Shown: one piece after another, positions 33,991 to 39,954 of the stretch
Layout of the letters: every line of letters begins with the position of its first letter
Position numbering within the stretch: position 1 is the stretch's first letter
Assembly (NCBI RefSeq): GCF_000185805.1
Contig: NC_014926.1
Coordinates: 1,610,001 to 1,674,000 of the forward strand
DNA from: Thermovibrio ammonificans HB-1
GTDB lineage: Bacteria; Aquificota; Aquificia; Desulfurobacteriales; Desulfurobacteriaceae
Direction: 5' to 3'
DNA: 64,000 nt
Notes under the pieces: model-generated
Seen by the model: the letters and a program-made list of their open reading frames with translations, nothing else
Database searches by the model: none
What the model was told of the DNA's origin: nothing
Made by a program: the position numbers and the translations under genes

Positions 33991-34006
33991 TTTTCGGAGG
34001 GAAACC

Positions 34007-37000
34007 ATGGGAAGGAAGTGGCGCAAGAGCAGGTTGAGCCTGACAACCGGCTTTATACTCTCTGCCGTGCTGGCATCTCAGGCCTCTGCTCAACACCCGG
34101 CTGTAAAGCTTATCGACGTTAACGGAACAACCGAGAAGCAGATTCTCGACCAGAACCTCGCAAACAACGAAACCATTACAGTCCAAGGCTTCGATGGCAA
34201 CGTTACTCTCGTAAAGGGAACCCCCATAAGCTTTGAAAAGTCCTGTGCCCAGTGTCACGAGAACATAATCACCGACATAAGGGCCTCCCACCACGGCGCC
34301 GTGGGGCTCCACGACATGGGCTGGATGGACAACATGGAGACCCACGGAGACGACACGGGAGCAAAGGACTTCGTTACAAACCAAGTCCTGAAAATGCGCT
34401 ACTTCAGGACTAAGTCCCACTACGGAGGCTGGTGACCCCCCTCCTACCGCCAGTTGGCGGCAAAGAACCCCCTTACAGACCCTGCCGTTCCCGACGGTGC
34501 CGTAGACGGCATCAACCCGGCAGACGAGGCCTCCTACAAGGGCTTCAACTTCGATATGGGTACAATGAACCACAACATAACCTGTAACTCCTGTCACGCA
34601 GGAGGAGGGGCGGCCCAGTTCGGAAGGGAGAAGAAACCCCTCGACGAGGTTCTAAGGGAGAGAATAGGGGACACCGAGTTTGAAAAACTCAAAACCTTAG
34701 GCTGGTTCATCCACGACGAGAACCTCATAGCAAAAACGGGAATAGACGGCGACCTGCTCGGGTACTCCGACTACGAAGTTGGAGCAGGTTACCTCGGGAA
34801 GCCGGGAGTGTTTAACTTTGCACGCTCCGGCGTTAACGACACCGACTGCTTCATGTGTCACGCCGACGCCAGCCAAACCGATAAGATGATAAAGTCTAAG
34901 GTGGGTGGCACAGAGGTCTACCCGATAATGCCCGCAAACCCGCGGGTCATGGTGTTTAAGGGCCTCACCGCCGACAACGAAACAATTGTGATATCCCTGG
35001 GAATCCCTCCGAAGAAGGGAGAGGTTATCGGCGGTAAAGTTGTAGACCACGTAGACTCCGCCTACTATAACTCCGTTCCCGTTCAGGTACTTGCGGCCGT
35101 TTACAACGTTAGCGACCCCAAAACCTTCATAGGCAACATCGTAAACGGAACCGACCAGCACTTCTACCTCTACCCCAACAACGCAAACGGTGCCACGAGG
35201 GAAGTTGCAAGGGTCGTCTACTTTGAGCACCCCGAGTCCACAAAGGCCGCAGACGGCGGAGAGGTTTACGTTAACGGCGGTGCTGTAACGTTTAAGGACG
35301 ACAACGGCCAGGTTGTATACAGAACCTTCGCAGGTTACTTCTTCAAGTACATCTCTACCGCCTCCCTGATGGGAGTAGACACCAACCAGAACGGCGTTCC
35401 CCTGGCCTATGTAAGGTTCGTAAAGGACGAAAACGGCATTTGGAAGGCAGAGGTTTACTACGACAAAGACGAGTTTGACTCCAAGGGAGAGGTAGACCTC
35501 CCCGTTCTCGAAAACAGGGTCGGCGACAAAGACACACCGCCGACGGAGGTTCCGCCCGACTCCTACACCTACTCGGTGCCCGAAAAGCTCGGAGATGCAA
35601 ACGAGCCCTTCCCCGAGATGACAAAGCCCGCAGAGAACAGGAACAGGGAGTGGGGCCTGGTATGTTCCTACTGTCACATGGCCATACCCTATAAGAGCGG
35701 TAAAACCTTAGACGCAAACGGAAACACCGTAGAGACCTACACCTGGGTAACAAGGAAGGGAACCCTCGGACTTGCGGCCGAAATCGTTAAGAGGGGAGAC
35801 GTCTTCTCCTACGACCTTCACAGGGGAGGCGAAGAGGAGGGCAACCTCCAGCCCGACGCCTTCACAAACGTAGACTTCACAAACGCAACGGCAATGCACG
35901 AAGCTCTCCTGAAAATGGAGAGCGCCAAGTCGGTAGTCTCCATACCCGACCCCGAAGGGGAGGACATCCCCATAGGCTACGACGTCCACTTCGACAGCAA
36001 AGAGGCCGGACTTACCTGTCTGTCCTGTCACGGAGAGGGAACCCTCTCCCCCGAGGAGAAGGAGTACCACCCGATACACCACGACTTCCTGAAAGGAAAC
36101 GACTGGGGCGGACACTGGGACCAGTCCCTCGACTACAACCCGTCCCTTAAGACGTGTCTGGACTGCCACTTCGGCGGTTCAAGGCAGCTTGCAGCAGACG
36201 TCCACAGCGAGGTATTCGGCCCTTCAGGAAACGCGGCAGTCCATATGGAGAAGGTCTCCTGTGAGGTCTGCCACATTCCGTACAAGACCCACTGGACCTT
36301 CAGGACCTTCTACGACGTTGTAGGCTACTCCTACAACTTCGACAACAGGATGCTCGCCTACGACCTTGCAAACGGAACGGTGAAGAAGCTGCCTGTAGAG
36401 ATGTTCACACCCGGTTTCGGCCCGTTCATGCCCATTGCAGGCTACGGCGCTCCCCAGCCGTTCTGCATCACCAAGACGAGCGACGGCAAAGACACGGTAG
36501 TCCCCATCTACCAGGCAGACTTCGACCCCCGTCAGGCAGCCCTGAGGCTGGAGCAGAACGTATTCGGCATATGGAAGGTGCCCAAAGAGTCGTTCCCGTG
36601 GGGATGGGCAACCGTAATCATCAACAACGGCTTCAGGCCCGACACCCCCGGCGGCCAGAAGTTTATGTACAGGCTTGCCGACCCGCTCACACTCGTAACC
36701 TGGTACGACAAGTCAACGGGTAAGGTCCTCTATACGAGGGAGATAGCCGCCGCCCTCGACGGTGCGGTTAAGTCCGACGCCGCATCCAGCGGCCTGCTGC
36801 CTGCAGGACAAACCGAAAAACGCGTTCCCGCCTACTTCATAGAGAACGGTAAGGTGTGCGTGAAGACGATTCTCGGAGACTACATCTGCGACGATAACGG
36901 CGACTACCTGCCCGAAATCGACACGGACACCGAGTACGAGGCTATGAAGTCCGCCCTCAAAGAGGTCCTCAAGACCGAGGGCGTTAAGAACCCAGAGCCC

Positions 37001-38584
37001 GTCTTCTACATCTGGACAGCTCCGTTCAGCATAGACCACGGCGTTCTGCCCAAAGAGTACGCCCTCGGTGCCGGTAAGACCGTTAACGGAGAGGAGCTCA
37101 ACTGTTCCGCCTGCCACGACGCCCTCAACGGAAGGTTACCGCAGGCAAACATGTCGGATATAGAGTCTTCCGAGTCCCTCCAGCAGCTCATAGTTAAGGA
37201 CGACAAGGGCCACATTAAGTACTTCGGCCTGGGTAGGCAGATAGTTACCGTTCCCGTGAAGATACCTGCAGAGGCCTACAAAGAGGCCGTTAGGGTCTTC
37301 TTCAACTCTCCCGAGAACGCAGACGGCTCTCCCAAGTACGGCACTATGAACGGTAAGGAGGTAATGGTTACAACGGCGGGAGATATCCTCGTTAACGCCC
37401 TCACAAACGGCCTGGACGTAGACAGGCACCTCGTTCCAATTCCGGTGGAGAGCTCCGGCATAGAGGGTATAGCCTTCGCCCTCAACGGAGAGACCTCCTC
37501 CTGGAAGATGAAGTTCGACGGCGTAGAGGCCGAGGTTGAGACAGAGGCCCTCTACAACGACGACGTTCCCCGCAGGGCAATAGTCCTCAGGCTGAAGAAC
37601 GAGCTTCCCGAGCTTCTCGGCCTTGAGCACCTTGCCGACGAGATACTCGCAGCCGGACCCGACGGACTCCAGCCGGTGTTCACTCCGATAATCCCATCCG
37701 AGTACATAGAGAAGATTAAGTTCAGCCTTGCAAATCTCGGGGTTACGTCGATAGACGCCCTCTACATAAACGCTACCAAGATTCACAAGGTAAGGGTTTC
37801 CGAGGGCGAGAACGTTTACTACGAGGTGGACAAGGAGCAGTTCCACCCCACCTCCATACCGGTAACAGAGGCCATAGCCAAGGGCTGGGCTTCCTACGAC
37901 TCCTACACCAAGGAACTCTCAATTAACGTTGCAGCCCTCAGAAACGGCATCCCAGGAGAGGGTGAGCTCGCCTTCTCCGTAATGAGGCAGGCAAACGCCG
38001 CGGTAGAAGTTCCACAAACCGTTGAGGTTGAAGGTTCCGAAACTGGAACTAAGGTAGACCTCAAAGTTGACGTAGGCGGTAAGGTTGTTCCGGTAACCGT
38101 TACACTTTCCGACAACGCCTCCGTTGAGAACGTTCTCGGTAACATTCCCACCGAGGAGGCCCAGCTTGTGACCATAGCCCAAACCTTCAACTTCTCTAAG
38201 CTGGGCGTAGCCTTCACGGCAACTGCCACCGGCAACTTCCAGGTAACTTTTGAAAACGGAACGCTCCTTGTAGACCCCAACAACGCTGTTGTCGGCTACG
38301 AAGTCAACGGCGTTAAGAAGACCGTTAAGCCCAGGGTTGAGGGAACGAGCCTCGTAGCAGATATCGACCTGGAGGAGACAAAGGCCGAAACAAGGGTAAC
38401 CGAACCGATAACCGTTGCCCTCGGTGAGACCTCTACCACCCCGACCGCTACTGCCCCGACCGGTGGAGGCGGAGGCGGCTGTGCAATGACCACTGCTCCT
38501 GCCTCCTCGGGCCTGTTCAACCTGGGAGTTATCCTCTCCGGACTCCTCGGACTCTTCGGCCTGAGGAGGAAGAGGAGACAGTAA
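34007..38584 (+). CDS. selenocysteine-containing octahaem c-type cytochrome (in-frame TGA)
   Basis: Two open frames, 34007-34432 and 34436-38584, are in the same phase and separated only by TGA at 34433-34435, codon 143 of 1525. A hairpin 11 nt after the TGA suggests selenocysteine insertion, giving ...SHYGGW-Sec-PPSYRQ. A signal peptide covers residues 1-28 (ending ASA). Eight haem sites CxxCH start at 80, 193, 281, 553, 671, 717, 752 and 1033. One is before and seven after the TGA, so neither piece alone makes sense. Residues about 1035-1470 lack haem sites and end in beta-rich, Thr-rich sequence. The last 40 residues (from 1486) are GGGGGGC, a hydrophobic helix and RRKRR, a GlyGly/JDVT/Synergist-type C-terminal sorting signal, so the protein is probably surface-anchored. 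Probable extracellular or periplasmic electron transfer; substrate unknown. GGAGGG precedes the ATG. Confidence 0.85.
34433..34460 (+). promoter_or_regulatory. UGA codon and SECIS-like hairpin
   Basis: TGA at 34433-34435, then 11 nt (CCCCCCTCCTA), then CCGCC-AGTT-GGCGG (34447-34460), a perfect 5-bp stem with a 4-nt loop containing GTT. In E. coli fdhF the minimal SECIS hairpin also begins 11 nt after the UGA and has a GU in its apical loop. The hairpin lies inside the coding sequence and encodes YRQLAA. Confidence 0.7.
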
Positions 38585-38667: not shown

Positions 38668-39954
38668 ATGAGAAAAGCCCTTGTAGCCCTACTGCTCTTT
38701 TCCGTAGCCTCCTGCAACTCCCCGCAGACGAAAGAGCTTAAAGAGCAGCACACAACGGTCTCCGAGGAGAAGCACGCAGTGTGCACCCCGGATACCCCCC
38801 TTGCCGAGGGTAAGGGTGTAAAGGTAACGCTGGCAGACTTCCGCTACACGTGGAAGTTACTTAGCCCCCAGAGCAGGAACTTCTTCGCCGCCCACCCGGA
38901 AGAGCTGTTAAAGAGGATGGTGAACCGCAGGCTCGTTGTAAACTACGTTGAGTCTACAGGGCTTGCAGAGCGCAGCGGGCTTGAGAAGGAGATGGAGGAG
39001 TTTAAGAAGGAGTGGCTCGCAAGGTACTACGTATCGGCAGAGGCCAAGAAGAGGCTTAAGCCGGTGACAAACGAGGAGATAGTAGAGCGGTTTAAGGAGC
39101 TCTTTCCCAAAAAAGACCCTTCGAAAATGTCTAAGGGCGACAAGGACTTTATCAGGCACGAGCTGGAGGTTAAGCACTTTGACCAGGCGGTTAAGTCGCT
39201 CTACGACGAGGTAACGAAGAAGTTAAAAATCGAGAGGAAGGGGGATAAGCTTGTAGCCTCCTGCTGCGGACTCGAGGTTGAGGCTCCCTATAACAAGAAG
39301 AGGGAGAAGGAGCTTCAGAACTACCTCAAGGAGAAGTTCCTCACCGAGTACTTCTACAGGCAGGCTTTAAAGGCGGGCTACGACAAGCTTCCCCGGTTTA
39401 AACACATGTACGAGGAGTACTACGCAACCAGGGCCGTTGAGCTCTTCAGGAAGGAGCTTGAAAAGGGGATAAAGGTAACAGACGAAGAGGCCAAGGCCTT
39501 CTACGAGAAGAACAAGGAGCGCTTCAAAATGCCCGACAGGGTAAAGGCGGTAGTTTTCTACTTTAAGTCGAAGGAGAGGGCTTTAGAGGCCAAGAAGATG
39601 CTGGAAAGCGGCAAGAGCTGGCAGGACGTTGCCCGCAGGCTGGGCCAGTTTAACGCTAAGGAGAAGTTCTACTACCGCGACCCCAAAGACCCGATAGGCG
39701 CCCTGGTGTTTATGAATGGCAACCCTAAAAAGGGTCAGGTGTTCGTTGCCGACTTCGGGGGCAAGTACGTAACCGTTTACGTTGAGAAGTTCGTTCCCGG
39801 AGGGGTGCTCCCGTACAAGGAGGTGAAGAACTACGTGAAGCTGGTTTTAAAGAGGCAGAAGCTCCGGCAGGCAGAGGTTGAGAAGCTCCGGAAGCTCTGG
39901 AAGGAAAAAGGCGTGAAGCTCGAAAACCTCAGCTGTTTAAAGGGGAGCCTCTAA
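38668..39954 (+). CDS. PpiC/SurA-like peptidyl-prolyl isomerase lipoprotein
   Basis: 428 residues with a lipoprotein signal ending SVASC (residue 16). The layout fits a periplasmic parvulin-type foldase: a SurA-like helical N-terminal part (VNRRLVVNYVESTG), then ITDEEAKAFYEKNKERF-like VTDEEAKAFYEKNKERFK before a degenerate rotamase region (KSWQDVARRLGQFNA, GQVFVADFGGKYVTVYV) and a basic C-terminal helix. The isomerase core is not strongly conserved, so it may act mainly as a chaperone. It follows the cytochrome terminator and has its own AGGAGAGG site. Confidence 0.72.
   Translation: MRKALVALLLFSVASCNSPQTKELKEQHTTVSEEKHAVCTPDTPLAEGKGVKVTLADFRYTWKLLSPQSRNFFAAHPEELLKRMVNRRLVVNYVESTGLAERSGLEKEMEEFKKEWLARYYVSAEAKKRLKPVTNEEIVERFKELFPKKDPSKMSKGDKDFIRHELEVKHFDQAVKSLYDEVTKKLKIERKGDKLVASCCGLEVEAPYNKKREKELQNYLKEKFLTEYFYRQALKAGYDKLPRFKHMYEEYYATRAVELFRKELEKGIKVTDEEAKAFYEKNKERFKMPDRVKAVVFYFKSKERALEAKKMLESGKSWQDVARRLGQFNAKEKFYYRDPKDPIGALVFMNGNPKKGQVFVADFGGKYVTVYVEKFVPGGVLPYKEVKNYVKLVLKRQKLRQAEVEKLRKLWKEKGVKLENLSCLKGSL

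Follow-up and report, generated by a model that had tools for sequence, protein, structure and literature searches.

Most known selenoproteins are either thioredoxin-like or molybdenum and nickel enzymes, and few families of multihaem cytochrome have so far been proposed to contain selenocysteine (Sec). One of these is ExtKL of Geobacter (NF040886, cyt_C_like_Sec), a multihaem c-type cytochrome with a UGA codon and a proposed selenoprotein (PMC5877670, PMC13188914), which differs from the proteins described here in having five haems and a mass of about 49.5 kDa. A GenBank-annotated Sec entry, WP_331457571.1, also appears in a published table (PMC13188914) under TIGR04315, the profile of octahaem tetrathionate reductase (OTR): like the present proteins it is a Sec-containing octahaem cytochrome, and it is named as a member of the OTR family. 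The locus analysed below encodes a large octahaem protein whose gene carries an apparent stop at 34433, which on the sequence evidence is almost certainly read as selenocysteine.

Thermovibrio ammonificans is a deep-sea hydrogen-eating bacterium. The HB-1 genome comprises 1,759,526 bases, of which the chromosome accounts for 1,682,965, and the window examined here is a stretch of 64,000 nucleotides. Within it a reading frame opens with the ATG at 34007, runs for 142 codons to a TGA (34433-34435), continues in the same frame and closes with the TAA at 38582-38584. The TGA is the only internal stop, and reading through it yields a protein of 1525 amino acids, here termed type A, so that the two in-phase frames of the initial annotation are indeed parted by a single codon. 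Haem sites lie on both sides of the TGA, as had been claimed: one CXXCH precedes it and seven follow, eight in total. Equally well founded was the assignment of a signal peptide to the upstream part and of a sorting-type tail (glycine-rich stretch with cysteine, hydrophobic helix, basic end) to the downstream part, as each is present in that part only. The tail is matched by TIGR04174 only below its cut-off in a profile search of the type A protein; together, signal peptide and tail suggest export and surface anchoring. Eight CXXCH sites are found in all full-length members of the family, and types A and B share eight further invariant histidines together with the invariant Lys595. The features are collected in Table 1.

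Table 1. Features of the type A gene and its surroundings, in positions of the window
Feature	Position	Strand	Remarks
Whole type A selenocytochrome gene	34007..38584	+	1525 codons, one of them TGA; closed by TAA; layout kept in homologues
Ribosome-binding site GGAGGG	33996..34001	+	5 nt 5' of ATG 34007 (sequence)
Signal peptide, residues 1-28	34007..34090	+	Predicted cleavage after ASA; N-terminal signal-like stretch also in homologues
Haem site 1 CAQCH, residues 80-84	34244..34258	+	Invariant CXXCH
TGA, probable selenocysteine, residue 143	34433..34435	+	Context HYGGW-U-PPSYRQLAAK; TGA in 36/36 type A-C genes
Five consecutive invariant codons TAC CGC CAG TTG GCG, residues 147-151	34445..34459	+	Three are rare codons
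SECIS hairpin CCGCC-AGUU-GGCGG	34447..34460	+	Apical loop starts 16 nt after TGA; invariant; fold computed
Haem site 2 CNSCH, residues 193-197	34583..34597	+	Aligns with Lys-ligated active-site haem of OTR; putative role
Haem site 3 CFMCH, residues 281-285	34847..34861	+	
Haem site 4 CSYCH, residues 553-557	35663..35677	+	
Lys595 in VKRGDV	35789..35791	+	Invariant; column of OTR Lys153 in 12/12 alignments; candidate distal ligand of haem 2
Haem site 5 CLSCH, residues 671-675	36017..36031	+	DVH motif (659-661) before, common to OTR
Haem site 6 CLDCH, residues 717-721	36155..36169	+	
Haem site 7 CEVCH, residues 752-756	36260..36274	+	
Haem site 8 CSACH, residues 1033-1037	37103..37117	+	HGVLPKEYAL before, common to OTR-like proteins
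C-terminal GGGGGGC, hydrophobic helix and RRKRR tail	38462..38581	+	Probable surface-sorting signal; in all full-length members
PPIC-type rotamase lipoprotein gene	38668..39954	+	PF13145 49.4 bits; possible folding partner

The TGA occurs at the same position in all 36 genes recovered from 17 Desulfurobacteriaceae genomes of seven genera. These genes fall into three paralogue types, A, B and C, all of which are present in HB-1. A search of 136 Aquificota genomes placed the 27 type A and B genes in 17 genomes, exclusively within Desulfurobacteriaceae, and each carries exactly one TGA, at the Sec position. The type B paralogue of HB-1 (near C2:925.5-929.4k) has its TGA aligned with that of type A, in the context GAW-U-PPSYRQLAAK as compared with GGW-U-PPSYRQLAAK. 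Type C proteins are shorter (about 800-920 aa; GMYGKL-U-[PA]PAYRQLAP), and the HB-1 copy (C2:352012-354768, L106 1013-3769) has 919 aa with Sec107. When the profiles of types A and C are compared, Sec falls on Sec (E=2.6e-30).

A hairpin, CCGCC-AGUU-GGCGG, starts 11 nt past the TGA; at -9.4 kcal/mol it is the fold of lowest energy. The energy is unremarkable by itself, with z between -1.5 and -2.0, and is weak evidence alone; an Rfam scan of the region gave no relevant match. Allowing as many as 3 mismatches, the window contains one occurrence of the pattern of TGA plus hairpin, where 0.11 would be expected. Conservation is far more telling. The pattern TGA-N9-TACCGCCAGTTGGCG has 36 exact matches, all in type A-C genes, and a control pattern has none: recurrence of the same TGA and hairpin in 36 genes is more than chance. 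Among the 218 fully conserved degenerate amino-acid columns of types A and B only seven use the same codon throughout, and the consecutive hairpin codons 147-151 account for five of them. The series TAC CGC CAG TTG GCG is kept without exception in 36/36 genes of types A-C, in which CGC makes up 7.8% of arginine, TTG 6.7% of leucine and GCG 7.3% of alanine codons, while the three codons between TGA and hairpin (PP[S/A]) vary freely. That rare codons are frozen exactly here shows selection on the RNA, of the kind to which a bacterial SECIS would be subject. The bacterial SECIS consensus has a G in the apical loop, and the AGUU loop agrees, with G at its second position. The 5-bp GC hairpin of the initial annotation therefore holds, invariant in the relatives and at synonymous sites, and a SECIS signature is found. 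In the type C gene of HB-1 the hairpin flank is slightly altered: TACCGCCAGTTGGCGCCC.

The machinery for inserting Sec is encoded in the genome. The genes selA, selB, selC and selD, named earlier as a check on the Sec reading, are all four present: SelA scores 616 bits, SelB 423 and SelD 365, and the tRNA-Sec (80.7 bits), called as tRNA-SeC(tca) by ARAGORN, had already been reported for T. ammonificans (PMC4227106, PMC5441870). SelB was not seen in two of the 17 genomes that carry Sec genes; these two are incomplete assemblies. The selD gene of HB-1 (C2:1591236-1592159, L097) contains a TGA of its own in frame (SG-U-GAK) and, behind it, a GC-rich hairpin whose loop is almost as far from the TGA as in the type A gene; an in-frame TGA in selD is also seen in 20 of 21 other genomes of the family. 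The formate-dehydrogenase-like genes of the genome were examined for TGA and carry none, so they do not account for the Sec machinery. As an ordinary stop, TGA ends nine of the 44 long open reading frames in the window and it also closes two of the cytochrome genes (L068, L137).

These observations bear on two readings of the TGA that dispense with selenium. Decoding as one of the standard amino acids, for instance tryptophan, or a leaky or regulated stop, would fit the tryptophan that precedes the UGA, and leaky UGA codons are known in bacteria; against this, the codon is TGA in each of the 36 genes and TGG in none, the hairpin codons beside it do not vary, tRNA-Sec, SelA, SelB and SelD are all present and TGA serves as a normal stop in the window, and such a reading is very improbable. 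Still less probable is a sequencing error, a pseudogene or a pair of separate genes. Such cases typically show up as a single stop within a long frame, but the identical TGA recurs in 36 genes from independent assemblies, and the genome was sequenced at about 4,285x Illumina coverage (PMC3570795). A separate downstream gene, for its part, would encode a product lacking a signal peptide and, alone, without export for haem attachment. Conservation of the TGA excludes all three for practical purposes. The insertion of Sec143 in the context HYGGW-Sec-PPSYR, first put forward from the bare sequence, is thus strongly supported by the invariant TGA, the frozen hairpin and the complete machinery.

A fourth paralogue, type D, was found with the type C profile in six genomes and is Sec-free: the five copies with a readable region have neither TGA nor hairpin and read GMYNR[VIR]-S-VPHMF, with serine in the Sec column. 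Type D shows that the scaffold can exist without Sec. In several genomes these octahaem paralogues (L155-L159) stand beside Sec types. In a haem-core tree with OTR as the root, the topology is ((A,B),(C,D)) with support of 95-100, and the simplest history would place Sec in the common ancestor with a single loss to serine in type D. The initial annotation had pointed to Cys or Sec as the residues to look for at column 143: the Sec codon is there in 36/36 type A-C genes, but no Cys form was found in types A-D, in the Aquificota genomes or in a single scan of 84,980 species genomes with a peptide pattern. An ordinary codon other than Cys or Sec, held to speak against Sec, was met only outside the Sec clades, as the hairpin-less serine of type D. 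Absence of a Cys form is unusual for a selenoprotein family. It may reflect the limited range of the search, which beyond Aquificota consists of that one scan, with matches in Desulfurobacteriaceae only, and distant Cys forms may exist elsewhere. A tblastn search of plasmids and an IMG/VR protein scan gave no homologues; a single IMG/VR match to the SECIS pattern was rejected as chance, as it lies in a 57-codon frame devoid of haem sites. Only one genus, g4, lacks types A-C in every genome; it has OTR-like octahaem proteins without Sec (L100, L102), although SelB is present.

The closest likeness of the haem core is to OTR (PDB 1sp3, TIGR04315). The eight CXXCH sites of both follow one order; a DVH precedes haem 5 and an HxVxPxExAL haem 8, and a lysine beyond haem 4 shares its column with OTR Lys153, which is the distal ligand of the OTR active-site haem. 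Twelve alignments were made, combining four ways of typing Sec (C, X, A or D) with three alignment modes: in 12/12 all eight haem columns are in register with 1sp3 and Lys595 falls on Lys153. A match of Sec143 to OTR Cys64, convincing in the first alignment, appears only if Sec is typed as Cys and is lost with X, A or D, so that the claim is confined to the haem 1-2 loop common to both. In profile comparisons type C matches OTR-like octahaem proteins with E=1.2e-10, and for type A the match to the OTR-like profile is confined to the vicinity of haem 8 (hhalign). Scores against TIGR04315, 25-64 bits with a cut-off of 375, are far below the curated threshold. A search of PDB sequences returned nothing significant, and AlphaFold2 models of residues 26-1065 and of the 286-residue N-terminal Sec region (nine sequences) were discarded at mean pLDDT values of 34.3 and 34.8. 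The haem core is remotely related to OTR.

Sequence evidence supports the Sec site, its SECIS and the insertion machinery, as well as the eight haem sites and the OTR-like haem order and lysine. From the OTR-like core, the haem sites and the lysine alignment, the protein may be inferred to be a surface reductase with eight haems and with its Sec in the loop between haems 1 and 2. SelB and tRNA-Sec would insert Sec at UGA 34433, directed by the hairpin 11 nt downstream; haem 2 would be the Lys595-ligated catalytic haem, to which the other seven haems would feed electrons, and Sec143, in its putative redox or active-site role, would be involved in catalysis, where it probably serves as nucleophile or as a donor of protons or electrons. 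The best guess for the substrate is polysulfide, sulfur or another sulfur oxyanion. The overall explanation, a surface octahaem selenocytochrome with Sec143 inserted through SelB, tRNA-Sec and SECIS, an OTR-related core and a catalytic Sec, is given a probability of about 0.85. The suggestion that Sec143 might be a haem ligand finds no direct support: the invariant lysine aligns with the active-site lysine of OTR, and together with the eight invariant spare histidines it suffices for eight haems.

The main rival to a reductase acting on sulfur compounds accepts the same selenoprotein but makes it a conduit of extracellular electron transfer, wiring electrons to minerals or partners, with Sec as a redox relay, metal ligand or haem neighbour. 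A large multihaem protein with a surface-type tail would suit that task, local matches to MtrC/MtrF and OmcA/MtrC models are seen, and in genome G123 an operon encoding a 28-CXXCH protein is found in the vicinity of the type B gene. The haem order and lysine, however, match OTR, which is an enzyme; the MtrC/OmcA likeness is confined to one haem cluster, with OmcA/MtrC far below the family cut-off; and a conserved Sec beside an invariant motif suggests chemistry. A conduit is accordingly considered rather unlikely, and the sulfur-compound reductase is favoured. A broader scenario is more doubtful still: three ancient paralogous lineages of surface selenoenzymes, with Sec beside a Lys-ligated haem, might serve sulfur or polysulfide (or nitrite) reduction in Desulfurobacteriaceae. 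The steps of sulfur reduction and of nitrite conversion to ammonium in Thermovibrio have been described as unresolved, and types A-C are candidates for the electron-acceptor steps left open there (PMC5441870).

In the neighbourhood, the rotamase lipoprotein gene downstream of type A has a similar-looking counterpart downstream in locus L051, and the type B locus has a PPIC rotamase gene as well (L098:3144-4388), with an ADP-ribosylglycohydrolase-like gene, identified by eye, standing between cytochrome and rotamase. Close to a type B gene there is an operon (L099:56-6049) for cytochrome b-like, trihaem, NHL-like and 28-CXXCH proteins.

With 36 copies, three types and both codon and SECIS frozen at synonymous sites, the family is among the better-supported computational cases. 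The Sec reading is testable in a culturable type strain, and the genes of types A-C are likely to be split or mis-annotated in public genomes. A description of the family was not found in the papers and profile libraries searched, and membership in ExtKL, OmcA/MtrC and TIGR04315 was ruled out by score: the NF040886 profile had no match in 22 genomes of the family nor to the type A protein, and TIGR03507 (OmcA/MtrC) gave 16 bits against a cut-off of 209.3. The decahaem OmcA/MtrC cytochromes resemble types A-C in a local match at the haem 5-7 cluster and in their likely surface location, but types A-C have eight haems instead of ten, Sec and a different anchor. Compared with OTR they are two to three times longer, with a surface-type tail and Sec in the haem 1-2 loop; though outside TIGR04315 membership, they may be inferred to work like OTR-type enzymes. 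As types A-C fail the TIGR04315 cut-off, WP_331457571.1 probably represents a different branch. Sec multihaem cytochromes having already been proposed in ExtKL and in the TIGR04315 Sec entry, the type A-C family is therefore rated as a new variant among them, and its 36 genes point to an undescribed family of putative selenium-dependent respiratory cytochromes.
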